A DNA stretch of 64,000 bases from a virus (IMGVR_UViG_3300008107_000003:1-64000), one strand, 5' to 3'. Counted from the stretch's first letter, positions 3,317 to 21,775 are shown. Numbers and translations: made by a program. Notes: generated by a model not told the origin, from the letters alone.

Positions 3317-3345
3317 AGTGTAGGATAATTAAAGCAGGGTGTCAA
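3317..3345 (-). promoter_or_regulatory. Sigma70-type promoter overlapping dam stop
   Basis: TTGACA (3345..3340), 17-bp spacer, TACACT (3322..3317). The -35 lies inside the last codons of the Dam-like gene and the stop codon falls in the spacer. The start near 3310 precedes the ATG at 3295. Confidence 0.7.
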
Positions 3346-4150
3346 GAGGTGACACATCATAATTAGTAATGTATAGATGACTTACCTTGTTGCCAGAATT
3401 ATCTCTACCAACAAAGTTCTGAGAATATTTGAAGTCCTTCGTAATCACGTTGTAATCGGCGTAAGCATCACGGTAGAACTCATTATCGCAATGGACTACC
3501 ATCCACTTCGCAGAAGTTGTCTGAAGGCATCCTAGAAGGTCCTGGTGAAGATTTAATCCACCATCTCCCTCAGTATAACCCAAACGATCTAGATATGGTG
3601 GATCAACGAATACAAAATCATTCTCTGTCAATCCATCAAATACTTTCTCAAAACTACCATGATCAATGTCACACTTGTGCAGAAACTTATGATGCTGTAG
3701 TGATAGATTGCAACTGAGTTTTTTATAATGTCCAAATGGCACATTAAACTCACCTTTAGAGTTATATCTCTCCATACCAGAAAAACACAGTTGCCTTACA
3801 ATAATATAAGCAATTGCTCGACTATCAAGATCAGTTGTATGTGACCATGGTTGATTAATGATCTCTCTAGATTTGTAATACAATTTCTCTAGATCATCAT
3901 GTTCTAGCAGTTTATACTGATCGATCCATGCTTGTACATCAGGATATAGAACTGGACTACCAATAACACGATACAAATTAATGACATCACGGTTAATATC
4001 ATTAAGATGTGCCATAGTTTCTAGACCAAAACTAACTGCAGCACCACCACAGAAAGGTTCAATAATCTTAGAATAAGTCTTTGGCAGAATAGTTTGAATG
4101 AAGGGCAGTTCTTTGCTTTTGCCACCCTGATATTTAATAATTGGTTTCAT
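3329..4150 (-). CDS. dam: DNA adenine methyltransferase (Dam, D12 class)
   Basis: 273 aa, normal size for a Dam-type N6-adenine methyltransferase acting on phage DNA. The N-terminal KYQGGK segment and IEPFCGG (residues 30-36) form the S-adenosylmethionine pocket, and the catalytic DPPY motif is at 183-186. The motif order (FxG first, DPPY second) fits the alpha/D12 class. No restriction partner is visible, so it is an orphan enzyme, probably protecting phage DNA or marking it. The ATG overlaps the stop of the next upstream gene by 4 bp. The recognition site cannot be told from sequence. Confidence 0.92.
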   Translation of the reverse strand: MKPIIKYQGGKSKELPFIQTILPKTYSKIIEPFCGGAAVSFGLETMAHLNDINRDVINLYRVIGSPVLYPDVQAWIDQYKLLEHDDLEKLYYKSREIINQPWSHTTDLDSRAIAYIIVRQLCFSGMERYNSKGEFNVPFGHYKKLSCNLSLQHHKFLHKCDIDHGSFEKVFDGLTENDFVFVDPPYLDRLGYTEGDGGLNLHQDLLGCLQTTSAKWMVVHCDNEFYRDAYADYNVITKDFKYSQNFVGRDNSGNKVSHLYITNYDVSPLDTLL

Positions 4151-5353: not shown

Positions 5354-5516
5354 TTTTACTTCCCGAATTTATAATAATTTGATCATCCAATCCATCATTA
5401 AATGATTTAACTAGATAATCTTTGATTAATCCCTCATCCATGCCCTCTAGCATGTTATTAATTTGTGTTTTAACATCTTTAAATGTTTTAACTACTAAAT
5501 TGTCCCCATCTTTCAT
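5328..5516 (-). CDS. Hypothetical acidic protein, 62 aa
   Basis: The start is placed at the ATG at 5516, because GGAGG sits 8 nt upstream of it; an earlier in-frame ATG at 5537 lacks such a site. Sequence MKDGDNLVVKTFKDVKTQIN, with an acidic middle and a Ser/Asn/Lys tail. It overlaps the end of the oxygenase-like gene by 29 bp. Confidence 0.65.
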   Translation of the reverse strand: MKDGDNLVVKTFKDVKTQINNMLEGMDEGLIKDYLVKSFNDGLDDQIIINSGSKNENSKSQQ

Positions 5517-6144
5517 GATAAGTTCCTCCAAGATCAAAATTAACTGTGGTTCTTATTCCTTCCCCTTGAGGAAGAGTACCATGAATTAACCAACTCGGAA
5601 AAATTATAATCATGCCTTTTTCTGGGAGAACATGTAATAGTCTTTTCTGAGGGTGATATAAATGACTGTAATTATCAGAGTGCATTACAAAGTATATTGG
5701 TCCTCGATTATCACTCGCACCTACAGTGTCCATTAGTGGAGATGGACCATCTGGCACCTCTGTATATATTACACAAGAAACATAATCTCTGCCATGTTCA
5801 TGAGGGGTATGATAAGAACCTTTATTTCCTGTCACCGTCCATCCAGAAATTATATTTAGTTTACTCCATTCAAATGGCAATAAACCATGATAAACTAATC
5901 GTCTTTGTATAATATCTTCATATGTTTCTTTTACAGTATTCCAATTTTTAGGTAGTTTAGGAATATAATCAGGACTCCATCCAGCAGGTGTAAAATATCT
6001 TTGAAATGATCCTCCACTTGCTGTAGTATAATCACTGTAATCTCTTGGATCTGCTTCTGAAACTATTTCTTCTAAATCTGAAACATTATCTAACTTGTCA
6101 ATAATAATCCAATTATTACCACAAGTAATCAATTCACCACTCAT
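5488..6144 (-). CDS. Putative 2OG-Fe(II) oxygenase
   Basis: 218 aa resembling the phage and marine-bacterial 2-oxoglutarate-dependent oxygenase family with a cupin fold (TIGR02466-like). Candidate iron ligands are H115 and H117 in HTPHEHGRD and H188 in WLIHGT. R198 in GIRTTVNFD is the likely 2-oxoglutarate anchor. The substrate is unknown. Its ATG overlaps the stop of the halogenase-like gene by 4 bp, so the two are translationally coupled and may act on the same molecule. Such oxygenases are frequent in cyanophages. Confidence 0.8.
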   Translation of the reverse strand: MSGELITCGNNWIIIDKLDNVSDLEEIVSEADPRDYSDYTTASGGSFQRYFTPAGWSPDYIPKLPKNWNTVKETYEDIIQRRLVYHGLLPFEWSKLNIISGWTVTGNKGSYHTPHEHGRDYVSCVIYTEVPDGPSPLMDTVGASDNRGPIYFVMHSDNYSHLYHPQKRLLHVLPEKGMIIIFPSWLIHGTLPQGEGIRTTVNFDLGGTYHERWGQFSS

Positions 6145-7604
6145 ACAGCATACTCCTGCTTATTATCAATAATTGCTTGCAATGCTTCTCTATGCGAAAC
6201 ATGTTCTGCTGCATTCATTTCTCTTTTCATAGCATTAAAATTAATTTGTATACTACTTAGAATATGATCAGGTTCATAATGTAATCTTCGTTGAGCAATT
6301 GTTGGTGGTATTAATCCTAATCCATGCATTACTTGGATCCAATTTGCTTCTCTAAACATATTATAATGATTTAAGAAATCACCCTTATCAGGATATCTAT
6401 ATTGATACATTTCTAATCGTTGTTCCAATCCTGGTGGAAGAGGTAAACTAGTAGCATACTTCCAAAATGCAGTATCGTTTCTCTTACAACGATAGTGTAA
6501 TGCAACAAAATCTAAAATGTTATCTAATAATTCTGCAAAATGATGATTGTAATAATCTTCTGCATATGTATTTCGTTTATCATAAGAATGAATAATATTT
6601 GTCAACATAAATGCTTGCTGAATACTACATCCAATAGATGTTGCTTCTAATGGTTCAATAAAACTAGCAGATAATCCGATTGCAACACAATTTTTAGACC
6701 ATGCTTTATCTAATCTACCAGGATCAAATTTAACATGTTTTGCAATTTCTAATTCTTTACCATAAAGTTCTTCAACTTCTCTGTGTGCTTCTTCTGCTGT
6801 AATAAATCTATCACAAAATACATATCCATTTCCAAATCTATTCTGTGTTGGTATTCTCCATAACCATCCGCAATCCATTGATCTTGATAGAGTAGTTGAG
6901 GGAATATCTTCTAATCTTTCTGTAGGAAATGCGATTGCTGAATTAAGAGGAAGATATTTAGAATAACTAATCCATTGAGCACCAAGAGATTTTTGATTAA
7001 TAATTCTACCAAATCCTGTACTATCAACATAGAAATCATAATAATGATGATATTTACCTAACAAATAATCTACACATCCATCTTCATCAAGTTGGACGTG
7101 TGCAATATCATCCTCAATAATTCCAATACCTCTCTTCTCGCAGAGTTTATGCAAATATTCATTTAATTTGAATGTATTAAAATGAAATTGATTTACACCA
7201 TGATAAGGTTTAATATGCAGATTATTGACTACATGATCTGGAACCAAATTATCAGATGGTTCTCCTCTTGCAATCATATCAGCAAATAAAAACTTTAATC
7301 CCGTCTGACTTTCTACTGTCAATTCTCCAGATAAAGAGTGAATATATCGTTGATTGTCACCATTCCAATTTACAAAATCAATTCCATATTTGAAAGTTGC
7401 ATCAGTTTCTTCAATTAATTCTGCAAGATTAATATTACAATGATGCATAAAGGTAGACCAATGTTCAGTAGATCCTTCACCTACACCAATAATACCAATT
7501 TTTTTAGATTCAATTAAATCGATATGAAATTTTGGATTATCTTGCTTTAAAATTAATGCTGTAACTAATCCACTTGTACCACCGCCGACAATCGCAATTT
7601 TCAT
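6141..7604 (-). CDS. Tryptophan halogenase-like flavoprotein
   Basis: 487 aa, close to the usual 500-540 of flavin-dependent tryptophan halogenases. GGGTSG (7-12) is the FAD-binding Rossmann motif. GWLWRIP (247-253) is the family signature WxWxIP, and K72 in TFKYGI fits the catalytic lysine position. E321 in IEPLEATS fits the conserved acidic residue. Such enzymes chlorinate or brominate indoles using FADH2 from a partner reductase, which is not encoded here. It overlaps both neighbours by 4 bp. The substrate in phage infection is unknown, and another flavin monooxygenase activity is possible. Confidence 0.88.
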   Translation of the reverse strand: MKIAIVGGGTSGLVTALILKQDNPKFHIDLIESKKIGIIGVGEGSTEHWSTFMHHCNINLAELIEETDATFKYGIDFVNWNGDNQRYIHSLSGELTVESQTGLKFLFADMIARGEPSDNLVPDHVVNNLHIKPYHGVNQFHFNTFKLNEYLHKLCEKRGIGIIEDDIAHVQLDEDGCVDYLLGKYHHYYDFYVDSTGFGRIINQKSLGAQWISYSKYLPLNSAIAFPTERLEDIPSTTLSRSMDCGWLWRIPTQNRFGNGYVFCDRFITAEEAHREVEELYGKELEIAKHVKFDPGRLDKAWSKNCVAIGLSASFIEPLEATSIGCSIQQAFMLTNIIHSYDKRNTYAEDYYNHHFAELLDNILDFVALHYRCKRNDTAFWKYATSLPLPPGLEQRLEMYQYRYPDKGDFLNHYNMFREANWIQVMHGLGLIPPTIAQRRLHYEPDHILSSIQINFNAMKREMNAAEHVSHREALQAIIDNKQEYAV

Positions 7605-8116
7605 TCAACTCCTCCATTTGGTAATCTTTCAATAATAAAGTTTGGATGTGTAGCTTTTTGGCATGTATGGACTGCTAATTGTGGTGAATATTGTTCATCC
7701 AATTCGTCAAAGAAATAAAGATTATTTACATGATCCCACAACCAAGAAAGTTCCCATTCACAACCTGTTTTAATCCATGCTTTTTTCCATTCCTCTTTAA
7801 AGTTTTCACAATAATCATACTTATATTCTAAGATAATAGTTGTATTTGCAATATACCTAACTTTACTTAAAAATTCTGCAGGATTATCAAGATATTCTAC
7901 CACTCCAGCAACCAGAGCAATATCAAACTTCTTGTCTCCAAAATCAGGAAACTCTACATTGAGATCACATTTTACATCACAACCATCCATAATGTCAACC
8001 CCCACATATTCTGTAGGTTGAATTAATTCTTTTAATGATTGATCTCCTGATCCAAAATGAACAACAGAAGCACCCTTTTCAACATAACGTTGAAAAAATA
8101 AATTTGATAATGACAT
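7601..8116 (-). CDS. SAM-dependent methyltransferase-like protein
   Basis: 171 aa from the ATG at 8116 (MSLSNLFFQRYVEKG); an upstream in-frame start would run into the previous gene. VVHFGSGDQ is the glycine-rich SAM motif, YVGVDIMDG the acidic motif II and FDIALVAGVVEYLDNP the motif IV/post-motif region, as in MetW/Methyltransf_11 class I enzymes. The substrate is unknown. The stop overlaps the halogenase start, so methylation may belong to the same modification pathway. Confidence 0.8.
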   Translation of the reverse strand: MSLSNLFFQRYVEKGASVVHFGSGDQSLKELIQPTEYVGVDIMDGCDVKCDLNVEFPDFGDKKFDIALVAGVVEYLDNPAEFLSKVRYIANTTIILEYKYDYCENFKEEWKKAWIKTGCEWELSWLWDHVNNLYFFDELDEQYSPQLAVHTCQKATHPNFIIERLPNGGVE

Positions 8117-8130
8117 AATAATTTTAATAA

Positions 8131-8664
8131 TTAAACGTTTTGTGAAGATTGACCGTATCCAAGTATAACTTCTTCTACCATACACATAGAAGGAGTATCA
8201 ATATTTCTTCCCCCTCCATCCCAATAACCAGTATGATTTATATGAATATTGTGATTTCCTTCAGCATATGATCTAATTCTATATCCAATTTGTGATCTTT
8301 TTCCTGCACCCCAAGAAGGAACCATGTATTCTCTTTGTCCTTGTCCCTCTTGATGATGATTTGATTGTGAATGTCTACCATATTCAACATCATCAACATA
8401 AAAAATCCAATGACTAATAGAGTGAGCACTGCCATACCATCTCATATGAGCATTCATACTAAATCTAATGTGACTATCTGATCTTGAAGGTTGAAACCAT
8501 AACCAACATCCAGGAGCCCAATAATATGTATTTACAGGTCTATACCATCCATCTCTGTAGTTAACTGTCTGCCTTTGTACAACTCTAGACACAAGATATG
8601 TACCTGTTACAGTACTGCTACCAGATGCATTACCTACGCTATTTACTCTTAAAGTTGCTGACAT
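8131..8664 (-). CDS. Paralogous structural (tail/fibre) protein, copy 1
   Basis: 177 aa. First of six related proteins sharing this order: N-terminal V-D/N-x-I patch, a WxPGxxxxFxP segment, then HSISHWIFYVDDVEYGRHS, PSWG, IGYRIRSY, a YWDGGG motif and a C-terminal EE. The Trp/Tyr/Gly-rich beta composition suggests a jelly-roll receptor-binding or fibre-tip domain. There is no signal peptide. The gene order beside large structural genes supports a virion role. Not matched to a named family. Confidence 0.8.
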   Translation of the reverse strand: MSATLRVNSVGNASGSSTVTGTYLVSRVVQRQTVNYRDGWYRPVNTYYWAPGCWLWFQPSRSDSHIRFSMNAHMRWYGSAHSISHWIFYVDDVEYGRHSQSNHHQEGQGQREYMVPSWGAGKRSQIGYRIRSYAEGNHNIHINHTGYWDGGGRNIDTPSMCMVEEVILGYGQSSQNV

Positions 8665-8670
8665 AATATT

Positions 8671-9198
8671 TTATAATGGTGATGGTAAATATTCTTCTGC
8701 TCTAGCTAATACTGGGACATAAAAAGTATTTCCTCCTCCATCCCAATAATGTCTAGCATTAAAATGTACGCAATGTGGACCGTCACTGTATTGTCTTACC
8801 CAATATCCCATCGTAATTGGTTGAAGTTGATTACCAAAATCTGATACAGGTATTTGCCATTTTAGATTGTGACCATGTTCTTGGTGATCATTGCTCTCAG
8901 AATGTCTATGATATTCAACATTATTAACGTAAAATCTCCAGTGACTAATTGAGTGAGCATTTCCACCTCTCCATCCTAAAGCACAATCAAACATATAATC
9001 AATTACACTGTTAATTCTTTTTGGTGTAATTGTAATATAACTACCTGGCAAAGGTCTCCATTCATTCTGTGGATTATAGGCACCCCATTGAGTTCTCTGC
9101 TGTATTCTTTGCAAAGTCCTTCTCTGTAGTTGATTGATCGTAAGAGATGTACTACTACTGTTAGTTCTAATAGTATCAACAAATAATTGGGATGCCAT
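8671..9198 (-). CDS. Paralogous structural protein, copy 2
   Basis: 175 aa and collinear with copy 1: LFVDTIRTN at the N-terminus, AHSISHWRFYVNNVEYHRHS in the centre, MGYWVRQY and HYWDGGG near the end. The inter-gene gap is 6 bp. It differs most in the N-terminal third, where Gln/Arg repeats occur (QLQRRTLQRIQQRTQ). Likely a variant tail protein; the ligand is unknown. Confidence 0.8.
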   Translation of the reverse strand: MASQLFVDTIRTNSSSTSLTINQLQRRTLQRIQQRTQWGAYNPQNEWRPLPGSYITITPKRINSVIDYMFDCALGWRGGNAHSISHWRFYVNNVEYHRHSESNDHQEHGHNLKWQIPVSDFGNQLQPITMGYWVRQYSDGPHCVHFNARHYWDGGGNTFYVPVLARAEEYLPSPL

Positions 9199-9204
9199 TG
9201 ATTA

Positions 9205-9567
9205 TTACTCTGGTTTTGGAAACTGCTCTTTAATTTCTAATCTTTTTGCTTGAAGTTCATCAGCATATCCAGGGTTATCTTCCATAATCTTATCCCAGAG
9301 AGCAATGATTAGTTCCTCTTTAGATGGATAACGACCTGGGAGTGCTCTTTGCATTCTAACTCTTTCAAGTGCAACTTCATCTTTAATTTCTTCCCACTTT
9401 GCAGCAAGTTCTTCTTTTGATGGTTGAGGACTATCTGCTAACCATGTAATATCCTCATAGTTTGGTCCTCTAACCCCATAAGGTTGTCCTGCATAAAATC
9501 TATGCATGACCTCACCATAATCTACACCATCATCTGCAAGTGGAAAATCCATCATGTTCTCTTCCAT
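9205..9567 (-). CDS. Putative tail-fibre assembly chaperone-like protein
   Basis: 120 aa, acidic, helical. The segment DITWLADSPQPSKEELAAKW resembles the W-x-D-x-x-x-x-P-S/T-K-E-E start of phage tail assembly chaperone-like proteins, and the 11715-12215 gene has the same TWNDDPSLKPTKEEVEAEA pattern. AAGGAGG lies upstream and a late box GATAAATA precedes it. It sits between paralogous tail genes, which supports a folding helper. Name is tentative. Confidence 0.65.
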   Translation of the reverse strand: MEENMMDFPLADDGVDYGEVMHRFYAGQPYGVRGPNYEDITWLADSPQPSKEELAAKWEEIKDEVALERVRMQRALPGRYPSKEELIIALWDKIMEDNPGYADELQAKRLEIKEQFPKPE

Positions 9568-9592
9568 TTTAATCTTAACCTCCTTTTTTTAT

Positions 9593-9600
9593 TATTTATC
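9593..9600 (-). promoter_or_regulatory. T4-type late promoter box (GATAAATA)
   Basis: Minus-strand GATAAATA, 26 bp upstream of the ATG at 9567, matching the late consensus NATAAATA. Confidence 0.5.
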
Positions 9601-10168
9601 GAATATTAATAGTTCTACCTACTCCACCACGCTCTTCATTGCCAGCAGTTCCCAACCATTCTTCAACTAAAAGATAACCAAAAGCATTTTGTCTGCTACC
9701 TGTTCCATTCCAATAGTTTGTACTATATGCGCGAACTGTATGGTTATTTTGAGAATATGATCTCATTTGATAACCAATTCTACCATTTGAAGTTCCCCAG
9801 GAAGGAACCGTCCACTTAAAAGTATTCCCTTCTTCTAAATGATTTCCAGATTCACTATGCATAAATGTAAGAATACCATTAACATAAAATTTCCAATGAC
9901 TAATTGCATGACTGGCGTTTACCCATGCACGAGGTATTCTTGCCCAGAAAAATAATCTACTATCAGCTCTTTGTGGTGTAAAATCAACAAAAGCACCAGG
10001 TAACCAAGCATAAGAATTACTTGGATTCCAATCTCCACCAGTATAATCTGCACTATATCTTTGAATACATCTTGCATTCAATTCTGAAACAGGAATAGTA
10101 TAATTCTGTAAAGATAATGGAGATTGATTAACAGTACCTAAATTTTTAAGTGTAACTCTAGATGGCAT
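9596..10168 (-). CDS. Paralogous structural protein, copy 3
   Basis: 190 aa. Shares with copies 4 and 5 the blocks YTGGDWNPSNSYAWLPGAF, HAISHWKFYVNG, PSWGTSNGRIGYQMRSYSQN and YWNGTGSRQNA. It has a C-terminal extension of about 15 residues (GNEERGGVGRTINIR) that the others lack. Long stretches of its DNA are nearly identical to copies 4 and 5, pointing to recent duplication or recombination. Probable tail-tip protein. Confidence 0.82.
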   Translation of the reverse strand: MPSRVTLKNLGTVNQSPLSLQNYTIPVSELNARCIQRYSADYTGGDWNPSNSYAWLPGAFVDFTPQRADSRLFFWARIPRAWVNASHAISHWKFYVNGILTFMHSESGNHLEEGNTFKWTVPSWGTSNGRIGYQMRSYSQNNHTVRAYSTNYWNGTGSRQNAFGYLLVEEWLGTAGNEERGGVGRTINIR

Positions 10169-10680
10169 TATGCTACCTCCCCTGAACCAAGAACTTCATC
10201 AACCATTAGTTGACCATATGCGTTTTGTCTGCTACCTGTTCCATTCCAATAGTTAGTATCATACCATCTTAAAGTATGATTATTTGTAGCATATGCTCTA
10301 ATTTGGCATCCTATTCTAGCATTAAATGTTCCCCATGAAGGAACTTCCCACATATATGTATCTCCATCTTCCAGATGAGTTCCAGCTGCAGAATGATACT
10401 TGAATAATCTACCATTAGCATAAAATTGCAAATGACAAATCGCATTACTAGCATTTACCCAGGCACGAGGAGCTCTCCAAGCATATTGAATTAAACTATC
10501 AGATCTTTGAGGTGTGAAATCTACAAAAGATCCTGGCACCCAAGCATATGATGTACTAGGATTCCAAGAACCTCCAGTATAAACAGATTGATATCTTTGC
10601 AAATATCGATTATTATACAATTCTTTTACAGGAATTGTAATATTACTAGCAAGATTTGTAATTCTATCTACAGAAATCAT
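10168..10680 (-). CDS. Paralogous structural protein, copy 4
   Basis: 170 aa from the ATG at 10680 (MISVDRITNLASNITIPVKE); earlier in-frame codons overlap copy 5. It has YTGGSWNPSTSYAWVPGSF, NARIGCQIRAYATNNHTLRW and YWNGTGSRQNAYG. The stop shares a base with the start of copy 3. It differs from the other copies by a Cys in the IGCQ block. Confidence 0.82.
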   Translation of the reverse strand: MISVDRITNLASNITIPVKELYNNRYLQRYQSVYTGGSWNPSTSYAWVPGSFVDFTPQRSDSLIQYAWRAPRAWVNASNAICHLQFYANGRLFKYHSAAGTHLEDGDTYMWEVPSWGTFNARIGCQIRAYATNNHTLRWYDTNYWNGTGSRQNAYGQLMVDEVLGSGEVA

Positions 10681-10688
10681 GATTACAC

Positions 10689-11198
10689 CTACGATGCTAA
10701 GTATTCTTGAATATAAGTTTGACCATAACAATTTTGGTTGCTGCCGCCGCCTTCCCAATACTGAGTAGAATAAACTCCTACTTCATGGTTATTTTGAGAA
10801 TACATTCTCATTTGATAACCAATTCTACCATTTGAAGTTCCCCATGATGCAAAGTCCCACACATATGTAGCACGATGCTCTTTATGATGTCCACTAATCG
10901 AATGCCTGCCTTGTTCTGTGCTTCCATTTGAATAAAATATCCAATGACTAATTGAATGAGCATTTCCTGCCCATCTTGCAACAGGAAGTGTCCAGTAACA
11001 TCTTATTCTAGATGATGCTGATAATGGAGTATAATCAACAAATGCTCCAGGAACCCAAGCATAGTTATTATTATTTCTCCATCCACCACCAGTATAGGTA
11101 CTTCTAGTTTCACGAAGAATTCTTCTCCTCAACTGATCCAAAGAAAGAGGATCAAGATTAGGATCTGGACTAATAGTATCGGTAACAAGTGTACTCAT
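10689..11198 (-). CDS. Paralogous structural protein, copy 5
   Basis: 169 aa with YTGGGWRNNNNYAWVPGAF, AHSISHWIFYSNG, HSISGHHKEH, SWGTSNGRIGYQMRMYSQN and YWEGGGSNQNCYG. The centre is closest to copy 3 and the His-rich loop is closest to copies 1 and 2, so the copies are mosaic. The ATG overlaps the stop of copy 6 by 4 bp. Confidence 0.82.
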   Translation of the reverse strand: MSTLVTDTISPDPNLDPLSLDQLRRRILRETRSTYTGGGWRNNNNYAWVPGAFVDYTPLSASSRIRCYWTLPVARWAGNAHSISHWIFYSNGSTEQGRHSISGHHKEHRATYVWDFASWGTSNGRIGYQMRMYSQNNHEVGVYSTQYWEGGGSNQNCYGQTYIQEYLAS

Positions 11199-11704
11199 GT
11201 TGGTAAATACTCCTCGATTGTCATTAAAGCTCTACAAAATTGAACAGATCCACCACCATCCCAATATCCAGTAGAGTGTAGTCGATTACGATTACTATTT
11301 CCATACCATCTCATTTGATATCCAATTCTTTGTGTTCCACTGTGCCAAGGAACATCCCACATATAACAATGTCTAGTTTCATAGTTTTGAGAAGATATAC
11401 AATGTCTACCTCTTTCTACAGAACCACCTTGAGTATAGAAAATACAATGCATAATATTATGACCATCAATATAACCTACAGAAAAATTACAAGTAACTCT
11501 AGCTCTTACGTTCTCAGAAGATGCTCCAAAAAATGCGTAGTCCCACCATAATCCAGGAGCCCATCCGTAGTTTGTACCAGGATCCCAAGTACCACCAGTA
11601 TATTCTTGATATACTGTTCTAATAATCCTACCTCGTAATTGTGCTGTAGGAATTGCAACTGTAAGATCTGAAGTTGCTATTGTATCAACCCTAAGGTTAC
11701 TCAT
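11195..11704 (-). CDS. Paralogous structural protein, copy 6
   Basis: 169 aa, the most diverged of the first subfamily: YTGGTWDPGTNYGWAPGLW, IMHCIFYTQGG, RHCISSQNYE, QRIGYQMRWYGNSN and STGYWDGGGSVQ. It has extra cysteines in place of Ser or Trp positions. It sits next to the tail-assembly-chaperone-like gene and starts 11 bp after that gene's stop. Confidence 0.8.
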   Translation of the reverse strand: MSNLRVDTIATSDLTVAIPTAQLRGRIIRTVYQEYTGGTWDPGTNYGWAPGLWWDYAFFGASSENVRARVTCNFSVGYIDGHNIMHCIFYTQGGSVERGRHCISSQNYETRHCYMWDVPWHSGTQRIGYQMRWYGNSNRNRLHSTGYWDGGGSVQFCRALMTIEEYLPT

Positions 11705-11714
11705 ATTTAACCTC

Positions 11715-12215
11715 CTAACCTAAATCAGGTCCAGTAAGATCTTGCCTTTCTCCAGGTTGAGGTGAAGCTTCAGGTTTTGTTGGCCATGGAACATTTTTTA
11801 AAACCCCATCTTGAAGAACAGGATTGATATCCAAATCAGTAATATCTCTAAGAGCCTGCATATAATCTACCCATTCTTGAGGAACTGGTTCATTTCTACT
11901 CATAGAGCGAATAATAATCCAATCACATTCCTTAAGTTTTGCATTACGAACTCTTCTAACTGCTTGCATTGGTGCTAGTTTTTGAAGTCTAACAGCCTCT
12001 GCTTCTACTTCTTCTTTTGTTGGTTTTAAAGATGGATCATCATTCCAAGTCAGTCCTTCCCAATCTTCTCCAACTAAACTCCACGCACAACTTGGACGAA
12101 GAGAAATAATAGCTGCAGCAAGATCAGGTTTTGAATATGCGTATTTTGTTTCTTCTAATGTATAATTTGGAGCAGATGATTTTTCTGCATCTCTTACATC
12201 AATTTCTTCCGCCAT
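11715..12215 (-). CDS. Phage tail assembly chaperone-like protein
   Basis: 166 aa from the ATG at 12215, which has GGAG 6 nt upstream. The C-terminal region carries the pattern of the Phage_tail_APC family: RVRNAKLKECDWIIIRSMSR, then PQEWVDYMQALRDI. The N-terminal part has LTWNDDPSLKPTKEEVEAEA and the end is Pro/Gly-rich (QPGERQDLTGPDLG). It presumably assists folding of the flanking fibre proteins. A late box CATAAATA lies about 22 bp upstream. Confidence 0.8.
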   Translation of the reverse strand: MAEEIDVRDAEKSSAPNYTLEETKYAYSKPDLAAAIISLRPSCAWSLVGEDWEGLTWNDDPSLKPTKEEVEAEAVRLQKLAPMQAVRRVRNAKLKECDWIIIRSMSRNEPVPQEWVDYMQALRDITDLDINPVLQDGVLKNVPWPTKPEASPQPGERQDLTGPDLG

Positions 12216-12236
12216 ATACAACTCCAGTTTTATCTT

Positions 12237-12244
12237 TATTTATG
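12237..12244 (-). promoter_or_regulatory. T4-type late promoter box (CATAAATA)
   Basis: Minus-strand CATAAATA about 22 bp before the ATG at 12215; it overlaps the end of the next upstream gene. Confidence 0.5.
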
Positions 12245-12887
12245 CCTGAGGATATGCCCATTCTTCAACTAATCCGAAACTGACACCTTGTTCATAACTA
12301 TCTCCTCCATTTTGATAGTTTGACCAAGTTGCATTTAAAACAAATCCATCATCTCTGTTATTTGCGTTCTTAACCCAAGGTGTATAAGTAACAGGATTTA
12401 AAGTTTGTGGACGATCCCACCAACCAAAAACTACATTAATTGGTGTACTGTCTGTATTATTATCATAGTGCAGAACAGCAACACCATTAGAATTCAACCA
12501 TGTATCATATAATCCTGCTTCTGGAATTTGTTGTAATGCTTGACCTCCAGAAATTGAGTTATTGTTTCTAGCAACTCCCATAGTATTATCCCAGGATGCT
12601 TCGCAAAAAATATTGTATTCAATATAAAACCAACTGTTGATTGATTTTGGCTGCACTACAATTTCTAATGGTTCTAGTAATGTAGCTTGTGTTTGTGTGG
12701 GTCTAATAATGTTATTTTCTGGTCCTGGTCTTCTATCGTTGTTTTGTACACGATAATATACTCTATCCATAGAAACTTTATAACGTACCTGTACAACAGA
12801 CCCAGGCATGTATAGTGATGATGGAGAATTAATGAATACTGTAGAACTAGTATTCCCTTGAATTGTATTTACTTTTAATTGGCTCAT
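12240..12887 (-). CDS. Second-subfamily structural paralogue A
   Basis: 215 aa from the ATG at 12887 (MSQLKVNTIQGNTSSTVFIN); earlier frame overlaps the next gene. It shares with the two following genes an N-terminal PGSVVQV/YxVxxR patch, a VQPKSINSWFYIEY block (others: ITPKYSNSTI), a YDNNTDSTPINVVFGWWDRP block and a C-terminal YEQGVSFGLVEEW. Beta-rich. Inferred virion protein. Confidence 0.78.
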   Translation of the reverse strand: MSQLKVNTIQGNTSSTVFINSPSSLYMPGSVVQVRYKVSMDRVYYRVQNNDRRPGPENNIIRPTQTQATLLEPLEIVVQPKSINSWFYIEYNIFCEASWDNTMGVARNNNSISGGQALQQIPEAGLYDTWLNSNGVAVLHYDNNTDSTPINVVFGWWDRPQTLNPVTYTPWVKNANNRDDGFVLNATWSNYQNGGDSYEQGVSFGLVEEWAYPQA

Positions 12888-12889
12888 GA

Positions 12890-13456
12890 TTAGTAATCTG
12901 CAGAAATTTCCCAAGCAAATCCATAACTAATTCCTATTTCATGGTTTCCAGTACCAGTGCTACCAGATGTTCTATTAAAGAAATAAGTATAGTTGCTACC
13001 ATTAGATGATCTAACAGCAACATCATAAGTTTGTGCGGATGTTGCTCCAGGACGATCATACCAATCAACAGTATGAAGATGAGGTGTGCTATCTACGTTT
13101 TGATCATACAAACAAGTTGTAATACAACTATGTCTAGCATTTCCTCTTTGTGTATTATATCCTATAAGACCATTATTTCTACGAACAAGAAATACGACAT
13201 TCTCATTCCCTTCTCCATGAAGCATCCATCTCAATCTAATGGTGCTATTTGAATATTTTGGAGTAATTACTAATCTTACATCAGTGAGTGGATTACCATC
13301 TCCACTATTACTAGCAGAATATGTAGTTCTATTATCACTTCTAACATACCAATGATTAATATATGTATTTGGAGCTCTTAATGTGTGCCCTGACTGCATC
13401 GAAAGAGTGTTTCCTGTTGCAGGAGCAATAGATCCAACAGTTATTGTTCTTGGCAT
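12890..13456 (-). CDS. Second-subfamily structural paralogue B
   Basis: 188 aa: PRTITVGSIAPATGNT, ITPKYSNSTIRLRW, IGYNTQRGNARHS, YDQNVDSTPHLHTVDWYDRP and a C-terminal NHEIGISYGFAWE. It has the same domain layout as paralogues A and C. It starts at the base that ends paralogue C (TAATG-type overlap). Probable tail or fibre protein. Confidence 0.78.
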   Translation of the reverse strand: MPRTITVGSIAPATGNTLSMQSGHTLRAPNTYINHWYVRSDNRTTYSASNSGDGNPLTDVRLVITPKYSNSTIRLRWMLHGEGNENVVFLVRRNNGLIGYNTQRGNARHSCITTCLYDQNVDSTPHLHTVDWYDRPGATSAQTYDVAVRSSNGSNYTYFFNRTSGSTGTGNHEIGISYGFAWEISADY

Positions 13457-14034
13457 TATCTTGCAATCTCCCTTAATACAAACATACTGACACCTTTTTC
13501 ATAATCCCCCCAATAGTTATTCCATGATTTATTTACACGAATACTATCATTACTATTACTTGCATATCTAGCACCAATACCGTATGTATAAGTAGAAGTT
13601 CCACCAGGACGATCTACAAATTTAATATGCAACCAATCTGGTGTACTACTCCTATCTTGATCATAACGTGCTCCAGTAACTCCACTATATTGAACGTTAC
13701 CAACGGCCGTATTATATCCTATATATCCAGCTGTATTGGTGATAGATCCATTTCTTAAAATTTGAAATGTAATATCATTGGAAGATTCATAAAATAAAAA
13801 TATGTCCATCCATATTTCACTATCACTATATTTTGGTGTGATAGCAGTATTTAATATTGATATTTCTCTACTTACGTTGTCAGCATTAGTTGCATATGTA
13901 GCAATAACATCCGTCATGTTCCAAACACATTGAATAACTGTGCCTGGAACTTTCATTAGAGTTCCAGCAGCAACTCCAATAACATAATCGTTTTCTGCTC
14001 TTCCGATTAATTCATCAACAATTACTGTACTCAT
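13456..14034 (-). CDS. Second-subfamily structural paralogue C
   Basis: 192 aa: STVIVDELIGRAENDYVIG, PGTVIQCVW, ITPKYSDSEIWMDIF, IGYNTAVGNVQYSG, YDQDRSSTPDWLHIKFVDRP and YEKGVSMFVLRE. Paralogous to A and B. Its ATG overlaps the stop of the following fibre-like gene by 4 bp. Confidence 0.78.
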   Translation of the reverse strand: MSTVIVDELIGRAENDYVIGVAAGTLMKVPGTVIQCVWNMTDVIATYATNADNVSREISILNTAITPKYSDSEIWMDIFLFYESSNDITFQILRNGSITNTAGYIGYNTAVGNVQYSGVTGARYDQDRSSTPDWLHIKFVDRPGGTSTYTYGIGARYASNSNDSIRVNKSWNNYWGDYEKGVSMFVLREIAR

Positions 14035-14651: not shown

Positions 14652-14659
14652 TATTTATT
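14652..14659 (-). promoter_or_regulatory. T4-type late promoter box (AATAAATA)
   Basis: Minus-strand AATAAATA 25 bp before the ATG at 14627, in the short gap after the 1306-aa structural gene. Confidence 0.55.
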
Positions 14660-17600
14660 ATAATGGTAGTTCTCTAATGTGAATTGTATCCCTAGCAGAA
14701 GGAATATGAGTACCAGTGAATACAACGTTTGTGCCCGAAACATTATAATGAGTAGCAGGTATTTGAAGAACACCATTTAAGAATACAAGAACACTGCTGG
14801 AAGTATGTGCTGTTAATGCTGTTAAAGCAAATGTTGTTGTAGTACCATTACCAGTATAGTTACGAGAAACATATTTACCACTTAATCCATAAGTACCAGT
14901 TACACTTAAATTACCTGTAGCATTTAAGTTACCACCAACATTTAATTTAGCCGTTGATATTGGAGCGGCGCCAATGCCAACGTTTGTGGTCGTTGATAAA
15001 GCATCAGCAGTAATGGCAAAGTTACGAAGATCAAATACTTTAGTATTAGTTAAACCAAACTGATACCATGTGGTTCCATAATATAACCAACCCAAGTTTC
15101 TGCCATATCCAGTTGTAGTACTAGTTGGATCCCAGCTGGTATTCCAAATAATATCTCCGTTACTTGGAGTTGTATAATATGTTGGCAATACAGGGTTTCC
15201 AGAAGTGTTGGTTGGAGCAATTAAGGTTCCTTTAAGAACTGTACCATCGTTATTAGAATAAGTAATCTTCTTAGCTTGGAATTCTTGATCTGAAGTAACT
15301 TTTGATTGGAAAGTAACAGGACCAGAGAATAATGATTCTAAGGAGTTACTATCACCACCAATAACAGTTAGTTTATCAGTAAGAACAAGTTCAGAGAATG
15401 TCTGAATGGTAGTTCCTTCTTCACCTACAACATTTAACTGTGCAATGTCACTAGAAGTAATTTGACCTGTAACTGGGTTAATAACTTGGTTACCAATGAA
15501 TAGGTCACCATTTGAGTTTAGACCAGAATAGAATGAAACTCCAGCTGCCTCCTTCAAACACTGAGCATATTTAACTTGATCAAAGGTAAGAACTTCAATC
15601 TGTGTTTGTGGGAATGCAGTTGAGTAGTTACCAGGACCAAATCCAACATATTCAAAGGTATGGTTACCAGAACGTTGAATAGAGTGACGACGAAGTTCAA
15701 TTAGTAGATCGACTACTGTACTTCCTTGTAATTTAAGTGGAATTTTTCTTGTCTCTGCATCGCCTGCATATGCAGTAACTGTAGTTGTTCCAAGTTTATT
15801 TAACGTTGACGTATATCCTAAGGCATTACTTGTCTCTGCAAGGAAAAATTCTACTGCTTCTTTAGTAATACTACGCTTAGAATCAACGGTTGTTCCATCA
15901 GATGTAGCACTTACTGCTCCAATAGTTACATTATCAGCAATTGAAATTGCTGCTAATGGATCTGCTTGAGGATTATCTCTATCAAATGCAGGATAAACTT
16001 CATTCACATTTTGTGAAAACTTGTAATCACTATAATTTGATGTTGTTGGAGAAATTGACGCACATAATACTGTTAGATAGAAAATACCATCTTGTACATC
16101 AGAAATAAAAGGTTGAATTTTTTCAGACTCATAAACGTAAAATACTTTATTATAATCTGAAGCTGTTCCCTGTCTAGGTTGAATAACATATCCAGTCAAA
16201 GGATCTCTAGGCAGTGGTTTAGCACCTTTAGGAATAACATATCTAAATCTATAAATTCTGTCCTTCAGTGTTCTTGCGTCAGAAATTCTCTTAATGAATG
16301 CTGAAGGCGTAAAGTTCAAGTTATTATAAATTGTACTTGTATTCAGTTCAGTATAAATTGTATTTGTAGCACCTTGAACACACTGAATATACCATCCACC
16401 AACAACGTTACCTAGTCCAGAAATATTATAAACTGTACTATCATATTTGATTGGACTATTTGTTTGTCCTGCTGTAGTTCCTGTTACTAGTCCAGTATTA
16501 TTGGATGGAGAAATTCTTGCTTCTCGAATAATATTACCTGTCGTTGTCTGAAGATTACAGAATAATCTATCAGGTAAAGACTGCGTTGTATCATATCTAG
16601 CACCAATTTGATAACCTTGTGCTTTAACAGGAGGAGCAGTTGAAGCATTAGTATATCCATATAGATATAATCTTGCACCAGTTCCAGATGCTCCACCTAA
16701 AGCACCAACATGTTTTGTTCTCTTAACATCAATATTTACCCAGTTAATAGAAATCTCAGTACCAAATGTAATATAACCACTTACTGTTGAAGCATTAGCA
16801 ACTGAAAGAGTAATTACTGTACCATTAATTGCAGATACTGTAGCATTTGTTCCTATTCCATTACCACTAACTGCTTGTCCTTGAACAATACCATTATTAT
16901 TAGCAACAGTAATTGTAAATTGTCCTGATGTACCAGTTGCAGTAGTACTTACAACATCTAATTGTTTTGGAGGAATGACATGTGTAAATGTTCCTGCTTT
17001 ATCTTTAGTAAAGGCAGCTGCTTTAAATCCTCTACATCTCAATGCTGTACTACCAAAGTTAGAGTTACTGTTAGTGATCGACATGTCAGCACCACTATCA
17101 GCAAAGAAGTGATCACCATATGCAACAGCGAACACCGAAACGACCTGAATAAAAGCATCATTAGCAGCTTTAATGTGGCAATGTCGCCACCCCTGTTTAT
17201 ATCGACATGCACCATCTAAGTGAGAACCTGATCCACCGTCATCATATGTTTTAGTAACTGAATTATATCTTACAAAAGCTCTATCATCTTTCTGCAGAGA
17301 TAGTCCCGTAAACTGTGCAACAACCATAGATTTAAAACCAGTTGTTCTAAATCCATCAGCATTCATACCATTCAATCCCCAAACAGATCGCAATGAACAG
17401 TTGAAGATATATGGTGAAGCACTGTCTACAGTATCAATTTCAACCTTTGCAAGAATATTTGTACCAATAGCATTACCAGACGGTTCAGATGCCATCTGAT
17501 AAGTGAATAATGAACCTTGTGCCGAAGTAACTTGGAATGATCCATTATACAATGCAGCATCAAGATCTGATTGCGGTCCTGTAGATCCAATAACACCACT

Positions 17601-18578
17601 GACATTAATTGAAATGCCCACAGAGAAACCATGGTTTACTGGAGTATCATCCTCGTCTACAGTAATAGCAGTTGCTGTTTGACCGTTCCTGTTAATTGAT
17701 AGGACACGAAATTCGTCAGAAATTGGACCAACAATTCTGTTTTCTTCAACTCTTGCTTGTAACTGATCTTGTCCAGGTGCTCCAGAAGTATCAGGAATAG
17801 AAGCGTATGCTCTTGAAATCTTTTGATAATAAAGTTCTAGATCAGTTCTATCTGATAAGTTTGGATCTCCAACTCCACTTGGAATTGTAAGTCTAGATCC
17901 ACCATCTGCACTTGAAAGGTAACCAAGAGTATTTCTACCATCAGCAAATTCAAATGCTGTCAACTTATGGTGAGAGAAGCTTGGTTGAATAGTTCTGGGA
18001 TCACCAGGAAGATAATATACTCCTGTTTCATCACCATCAAAAATGGTGAACTGCCACATATAGCATCCACCAGTAACTCTGAATATTGCTGAACTCTTTG
18101 GTTCGTTTTCTGAACTAACGCCAATCGAAGATTTTGTTGTTGGATATGGAACATACTTAGGAACAATTTTTGTTCTTCTGAGGTCAGATCCAATAATTGA
18201 ACAACCTCTAGGAACAATTACACCACCTTCAACAGAATTAAACTTATATAATACGTTTGATGGATTAGTAATATCAAAGTTACTGTTACTATCTAATGGT
18301 GCAATCTGTGTATAATCAAATTCTCCTGGTCTATTATCAATAATATATTCGGAAGGATACAGATAGATACTAAAAGCATCAAATTCGTCGTTTGAAAGTC
18401 CTACTCTATACGAAAATCTAGCAACTTCTAAAAATGCTCTTTGTAAAGTTTTAAACGGTCTTAGAGCAGAGTTGCCCCTATTATCAATCGAATCTGTAGC
18501 ATCAAAATCGTCTGGGTTGACGTAAATAATACGCCCAGTACGAGAAGTGACAATATTCTTTAATCTTGTTAATGACAT
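14658..18578 (-). CDS. Large virion structural protein, 1306 aa
   Basis: The start SLTRLKNIVTSRTGRIIYVN followed by a pectate-lyase-like opening (NRGNSALRPFKTLQRAFLEV) is typical of large cyanophage structural proteins. The middle is rich in Ser/Thr/Gly/Asn and probably forms a right-handed beta-helix. The C-terminal 60 residues contain GTTTTFALTALTAHTSSSVL and FLNGVLQIPATHYNVSGTNV, a repeat unit seen in fibre proteins. Likely a tail-fibre or baseplate-associated spike. Exact T4 counterpart unclear. Confidence 0.85.
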   Translation of the reverse strand: MSLTRLKNIVTSRTGRIIYVNPDDFDATDSIDNRGNSALRPFKTLQRAFLEVARFSYRVGLSNDEFDAFSIYLYPSEYIIDNRPGEFDYTQIAPLDSNSNFDITNPSNVLYKFNSVEGGVIVPRGCSIIGSDLRRTKIVPKYVPYPTTKSSIGVSSENEPKSSAIFRVTGGCYMWQFTIFDGDETGVYYLPGDPRTIQPSFSHHKLTAFEFADGRNTLGYLSSADGGSRLTIPSGVGDPNLSDRTDLELYYQKISRAYASIPDTSGAPGQDQLQARVEENRIVGPISDEFRVLSINRNGQTATAITVDEDDTPVNHGFSVGISINVSGVIGSTGPQSDLDAALYNGSFQVTSAQGSLFTYQMASEPSGNAIGTNILAKVEIDTVDSASPYIFNCSLRSVWGLNGMNADGFRTTGFKSMVVAQFTGLSLQKDDRAFVRYNSVTKTYDDGGSGSHLDGACRYKQGWRHCHIKAANDAFIQVVSVFAVAYGDHFFADSGADMSITNSNSNFGSTALRCRGFKAAAFTKDKAGTFTHVIPPKQLDVVSTTATGTSGQFTITVANNNGIVQGQAVSGNGIGTNATVSAINGTVITLSVANASTVSGYITFGTEISINWVNIDVKRTKHVGALGGASGTGARLYLYGYTNASTAPPVKAQGYQIGARYDTTQSLPDRLFCNLQTTTGNIIREARISPSNNTGLVTGTTAGQTNSPIKYDSTVYNISGLGNVVGGWYIQCVQGATNTIYTELNTSTIYNNLNFTPSAFIKRISDARTLKDRIYRFRYVIPKGAKPLPRDPLTGYVIQPRQGTASDYNKVFYVYESEKIQPFISDVQDGIFYLTVLCASISPTTSNYSDYKFSQNVNEVYPAFDRDNPQADPLAAISIADNVTIGAVSATSDGTTVDSKRSITKEAVEFFLAETSNALGYTSTLNKLGTTTVTAYAGDAETRKIPLKLQGSTVVDLLIELRRHSIQRSGNHTFEYVGFGPGNYSTAFPQTQIEVLTFDQVKYAQCLKEAAGVSFYSGLNSNGDLFIGNQVINPVTGQITSSDIAQLNVVGEEGTTIQTFSELVLTDKLTVIGGDSNSLESLFSGPVTFQSKVTSDQEFQAKKITYSNNDGTVLKGTLIAPTNTSGNPVLPTYYTTPSNGDIIWNTSWDPTSTTTGYGRNLGWLYYGTTWYQFGLTNTKVFDLRNFAITADALSTTTNVGIGAAPISTAKLNVGGNLNATGNLSVTGTYGLSGKYVSRNYTGNGTTTTFALTALTAHTSSSVLVFLNGVLQIPATHYNVSGTNVVFTGTHIPSARDTIHIRELPL

Positions 18579-21767: not shown

Positions 21768-21775
21768 TATTTATA
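21768..21775 (-). promoter_or_regulatory. T4-type late promoter box (TATAAATA)
   Basis: Exact T4 late consensus on the minus strand, 30 bp before the ATG at 21738 and just after the tRNA-Thr gene. Confidence 0.65.

Follow-up and report, generated by a model that had tools for sequence, protein, structure and literature searches.

The 64,000-nucleotide stretch analyzed here (IMGVR_UViG_3300008107_000003:1-64000, hereafter the window) corresponds to bases 1-64000 of a 176,692-base viral record, whose source we term a cyanomyovirus. On its minus strand, from position 14034 down to 8131, lie nine tandem open reading frames (ORFs) encoding two families of small proteins, three of family B and six of family A, in the order B1-B3, C1, A1-A4, C2, A5-A6, where C1 and C2 are two interposed genes. 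We propose that the nine gene products are fixed subunits of surface heads on the virion and that they assemble heteromerically, a reading to which we assign a probability of about 0.6; the presence of the nine proteins in virions, their tail location, their assembly into heterotrimers and their binding to receptors are what we infer. Each protein would consist of one TNF/C1q-like jelly-roll domain and a short N-terminal segment, and the nine would act as non-interchangeable head subunits, most probably at the distal tips of the tail fibres. B1, B2 and B3 would form one heterotrimeric head; two more would be formed by the six A proteins, which would derive from three ancestral types by a duplication of each. 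This exact scheme of one B trimer and two A trimers is less certain than heteromeric assembly itself. C1 and C2 would aid folding of the heads, in the way that gp25 assists gp24, the TNF-like tip of cyanophage Pam3, and the heads would attach to the surface of cyanobacteria, perhaps to its glycans. Three further genes, MT, HAL and OX, are conserved companions of the array, with tip modification as a possible role.

The initial annotation had described nine tandem paralogous genes in two families, and all nine ORFs were confirmed. With the likeliest starts, the proteins are approximately 169–215 amino acids long, and neighboring genes overlap by 1–4 bases or are separated by gaps of a few to 28 bases. 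Family B comprises B1 (13456..14034, 192 amino acids), B2 (12890..13456, 188 amino acids) and B3 (12240..12887, 215 amino acids), which align with one another, including the YDxxxxSTP and DRP blocks. Family A comprises A1 (11195..11704) and A2 (10689..11198), both of 169 amino acids, A3 (10168..10680, 170 amino acids), A4 (9596..10168, 190 amino acids), A5 (8671..9198, 175 amino acids) and A6 (8131..8664, 177 amino acids). The HSISHW, IGYQMR and YWxGxG blocks can be aligned across the six copies, some of which carry substitutions. In a search of the virus's own genome, identity between family A paralogues was approximately 31–51% over the greater part of each protein (E 1e-22 to 1e-47), and no further copy of either family was found elsewhere in the 176,692-base record. 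Families A and B are themselves distantly homologous (hhalign E 2.3e-6, 163 columns), a relationship that the initial annotation had not remarked on. Single-protein tblastn searches of phage records with A4 and A5 gave no matches, and a pattern scan of contigs returned 40 pattern matches, none of them a relative. A cluster of His and Glu residues (H81, H85, H105 and E107, A2 numbering) is kept in nearly all copies at all six A positions and may be a metal site.

The splitting genes, both described as tail-chaperone-like in the initial annotation, fared differently. C1 (11715..12215, minus strand) is a tail-fibre assembly chaperone of the Phage_tail_APC family (PF16778, E 1.2e-14; PHROG 4912, E 2.4e-12), and its orthologue in lineage L014 likewise matches PF16778. 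The small gene C2 (9205..9567, minus strand) is only weakly chaperone-like: it has PHROG 9114 in common with C1, its XkdW match falls below the cut-off, and its similarity to C1 is weak (BLASTP E 5e-4).

To characterize the fold, AlphaFold single-chain models of A2 and B2 were built from lineage alignments and compared by Foldseek with the PDB and with viral models. The models reached predicted local distance difference test (pLDDT) scores of 87.4 for A2 and 88.6 for B2, and both families show a two-sheet jelly-roll of TNF topology, with Foldseek E-values of 1e-4 to 4e-3. Family A matched the CBD of the A-1(L) short fibre, Chlamydia Pgp3 and the TNF-like lectins PLTL and BC2L-C (N-domain). The highest template modeling (TM) score was obtained with BC2L-C (6tid, 0.58/0.72, root-mean-square deviation 3.3) and the lowest E-value in the PDB with the A-1(L) CBD (8ke9, TM 0.4–0.5). 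Family B matched Pgp3, PLTL, BC2L-C and C1q. Among viral models, small cyanophage proteins matched family A, including proteins of S-WAM2 and ACG-2014j. At the sequence level, family B matched the C-terminus (residues 494–657, E 7e-8) of the 658-residue phage-type protein 9efk orf22, solved as 18 chains, while a sequence-profile search of the PDB with family A gave no match. Both models begin with approximately 20–30 mostly unstructured residues and have no helical stalk, and the array protein sequences contain no glycine-rich repeats. As modeled, then, families A and B are of the TNF/C1q-like, trimer-forming fold type. A receptor-binding role for the nine proteins, from fold and context, is plausible.

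Scans of IMG/VR recovered the block in eight further lineages (L010/L043, L011, L012, L013, L014, L016, L018 and L042), counting L010, which is close to L018, and L012, which is close to L016. In all eight, and thus in nine lineages with the window, the order B1-B2-B3-C1-A1-A2-A3-A4-C2-A5-A6-MT-HAL-OX is kept, as far as contig ends allow in L012 (which ends in HAL) and L018 (which ends in A6). Identity to the window is approximately 34–62% for the A and B genes, 54–56% for HAL and 26–38% for MT. C2 is shortened to about 75 amino acids in L012, and L011 and L042 carry extra genes between A6 and MT. In L042 the block lies behind small, unrelated genes plus an HNH endonuclease, and the 6 kb upstream contain no fibre gene; the block can thus stand as a unit outside its usual surroundings. 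In L011, C-terminal additions of differing kinds are carried by five of the six A proteins, namely Ig-like Big_5 and He_PIG domains, a module that also occurs in PHROG 677, a stretch similar to PHROG 1417 and an unassigned addition, and A6 of L012 and L016 has a 160-residue C-terminal addition. All of these additions come after the TNF-like domain, as expected for outward-pointing, exposed ends.

Trees resolved the copies by position. In family A, the clades of A1, A5 and A6 had support of 100, 100 and 96, and those of A2, A3 and A4 united every lineage except the window's (85, 98 and 44); in family B, within cassette lineages, B1, B2 and B3 had support of 100, 95 and 100. For 52 of the 54 family A proteins the nearest neighbor occupied the matching position, and for the other 2 it came from the same genome; for family B the nearest neighbor occupied the matching position in 28 of 33 cases. 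Family A further resolved into the sister pairs A1+A2, A3+A4 and A5+A6, each with support of 100. Ratios of nonsynonymous to synonymous substitution rates (dN/dS), where estimable, were mostly 0.02–0.12, and in this ratio the array genes did not exceed the chaperones and enzymes.

These data bear on whether the array is a host-range library, in which spare receptor-binding proteins are kept for alternative use. Tandem paralogues of lectin-like fold would suit such a library, and exchange does happen. In the lineage of the window, A3 is sister to A4 (support 99), which would fit a replacement of A3 by A4 that left the position intact. Moreover, between the window and the near-identical contig L021, the synonymous rate (dS) rises to 0.36 at A3 compared to 0–0.1 upstream (L021:6682-7712; window 10168-11198), which suggests a recombination point inside the array. 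However, one would expect both the number and the content of a library of spare specificities to vary, and the constancy of the array argues against one: number and order are fixed in nine lineages, orthology is positional, dN/dS lies well below 1, no copies are inverted or silent, and the genes are packed with overlaps or short gaps. A library is thus highly improbable. The initial annotation had offered it beside a hetero-oligomeric tip and had proposed comparing copy number across isolates; the comparison across lineages made here favors the tip, as do positional orthology, the signs of purifying selection and the occurrence of a trimeric, TNF-like fold beside tail-fibre chaperones.

Family B was also found without family A, in S-WAM2, in ACG-2014j, in the S-WAM2-like loci L140–L144 and in a fourth group (L061, L062, L137 and L138). 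Across the four groups (cassette, L062-type, S-WAM2-type and ACG-2014j), every completely sequenced locus has exactly three tandem B copies followed by a small gene; the triplet locus of L145 is cut by the contig end. Since three chains accompany a trimeric fold, heterotrimers are suggested, as in C1q, and the three duplicated A types suggest two more. The best tree sets most non-cassette triplets apart from the cassette triplet, which suggests repeated triplication or homogenization within family B. In S-WAM2 and ACG-2014j, where family A and the halogenase are both absent, each triplet gene is already annotated 'tail fiber protein' in RefSeq, and the triplet follows a giant fibre gene and is close to the neck genes gp13/gp14. 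This last position would suit virion decoration or neck-whisker proteins rather than tail tips, and TNF-like and C1q-like domains occur in decoration proteins too. The array is, however, directly adjoined by large fibre genes and PF16778 chaperones, and we consider a decoration or whisker role quite unlikely.

Several points weigh against heteromeric heads. The Foldseek matches have moderate TM scores (0.5–0.7), dS is near saturation in most comparisons, and one-to-one orthology of B1, B2 and B3 across the groups is not firmly rejected (approximately unbiased test, p 0.04–0.16, with few replicates). The heterotrimer rests on copy number and on a fold taken from single-chain models, and C2 splits family A 4+2, which has no simple mapping onto two trimers. 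TNF-like domains are usually homotrimers, so that the nine genes could instead specify nine separate, fixed homotrimeric tips, in the manner of multi-tailspike phages; each tip would recognize a different receptor or sit at a distinct site on a baseplate or branched fibre. Positional orthology and the differing C-terminal domains on the A subunits of L011 fit that arrangement. It would, however, leave unexplained why B numbers exactly three in all groups and why A forms exactly three pairs, and the single-domain proteins, with their very short N-terminus, lack an obvious separate docking module. We regard nine homotrimers as somewhat unlikely and retain fixed subunits of heteromeric heads as the preferred reading.

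The array is followed on the same strand by MT (7601..8116), HAL (6141..7604) and OX (5488..6144), a continuation of the block that the initial annotation had passed over. HAL is, by family and motifs, a flavin-dependent tryptophan halogenase (PF04820, E 4.6e-100): GGGTSG and GWLWRIP are present and the lysine of TFK is invariant in the alignment, corresponding to the defining motifs GxGxxG and WxWxIP and the catalytic Lys. Its nearest solved relatives are Trp-5-halogenases, and VirX1 (6qgm) was also matched. OX is a 2-oxoglutarate (2OG)-Fe(II) oxygenase (PF13759) with conserved candidate iron-binding His residues. MT is methyltransferase-like, with a weak Methyltransf_23 match below the cut-off; its orthologues do not keep the S-adenosylmethionine-binding glycine motif, and no other member of the block is as divergent. 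MT may be a non-catalytic partner. Two of the recovered contigs carry a second, different halogenase after the oxygenase (L013:12313-13818 and L043:13187-14677), giving two halogenases per block.

We surveyed the closest 80 halogenase loci from the scan and built a tree of 76 halogenases. A confident family B array was present only at the seven most similar loci, five of them full cassettes and the other two L061 and L062, in which the B triplet lies approximately 4 kb from the halogenase on the opposite strand. The array-linked halogenases form one clade (support 1.0). The link between halogenase and array has thus been kept through rearrangement, although common ancestry could by itself account for much of it. 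The idea that cyanophage halogenases always lie beside fibre tips was rejected: 73 of the 80 loci lack family A and a confident family B array (one of these, L110, has a single weak family B match), and S-H38 and P-SSM2 carry the halogenase in other contexts. Conversely, the triplets of S-WAM2 and ACG-2014j, being without a halogenase, show that it is not required for the B triplet. In S-CREM1 and syn9 (L026 and L027), runs of many 2OG-Fe(II) oxygenase-type genes adjoin the halogenase.

Tryptophan makes up 4–5.5% of family A proteins compared to 0.7% of the upstream fibre. VirX1 of cyanophage Syn10 is reported to have an active site that is unusually large and accessible (PMC8407142), and taken together with the tryptophan-rich A proteins this makes halogenation of tip tryptophans, which is at present speculation, worth testing. 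The fuller proposal, in which nine paralogues form three C1q-like heterotrimeric heads whose exposed aromatic residues are modified by the co-inherited halogenase and oxygenase, and thereby constitute the native substrate of this halogenase clade, is unlikely as a whole.

The array forms the terminal part of a minus-strand tail-gene block, and neighboring genes of the window are of T4-like cyanophage (Kyanoviridae) type, including a baseplate hub, a lysozyme and, upstream of the array, a large tail fibre protein (14658..18578, minus strand, 1306 amino acids; PHROG 529, E 0). Nucleotide matches around the array are to the Synechococcus phages S-CREM1, S-CAM22 and S-H38. Just upstream of the tail-gene block is a T4-type late promoter-like sequence, TATAAATA (21768..21775, minus strand), the sole such site near the array; this motif, the consensus of T4 late promoters, has two matches in 64 kb versus 7.5 expected by chance. 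The window also carries 13 minus-strand tRNA genes, grouped into several clusters between 21784 and 55783, and, downstream of the array, a D12-class adenine DNA methyltransferase (3329-4150; PF02086, E 5e-43).

Phage fibre tips are generally regarded as homotrimers made from one or a few genes. If our reading is true, nine tip-domain genes that are deeply conserved as a set and cannot stand in for one another would represent a different design for host recognition. The close linkage between the array and one halogenase subfamily also points to a concrete candidate substrate for cyanophage halogenases.

Among the closest known systems are S-WAM2 and ACG-2014j, whose homologous family B triplet follows a giant fibre gene but is without family A and the halogenase. 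The C1q globular heads have the TNF/C1q fold of family B and combine three paralogous chains per heterotrimer, although C1q is an animal protein with a collagen stalk and the likeness is an analogy only. BC2L-C (N-domain) and PLTL are TNF-like trimeric glycan binders; they are, however, bacterial homotrimeric lectins for which no sequence similarity to the array proteins was found. In Pam3, the TNF-like fibre domain of gp24 is folded by the neighboring chaperone gp25 in a 3:3 complex (PMC9608196), and the array resembles this pair in its TNF-like distal domain (trimeric in Pam3), adjoining fibre chaperone and cyanobacterial host. Whereas gp24 is one three-domain homotrimer with an N-terminal helical stalk and a glycine-rich tip, the array consists of nine single-domain paralogues with neither. 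The CBD of the A-1(L) short tail fibre gp33 (8ke9) is likewise a cyanomyovirus fibre tip, and the A-1(L) stem-CBD binds host cells (PMC10966104), but gp33 is a single homotrimeric fibre with a TM score of 0.4–0.5 to family A and undetectable sequence similarity. VirX1 and other cyanophage halogenases are of the same flavin-dependent family as HAL, which falls in a separate clade linked to TNF-like arrays. The initial annotation had known of no described system with this layout; that stands for the nine-gene version in the open-licence papers searched, whereas the three-gene version was already present in the public isolates S-WAM2 and ACG-2014j. The fold and its probable role were thus already known, while the fixed, threefold arrangement of nine genes with its linked halogenase appears to be undescribed in those papers.

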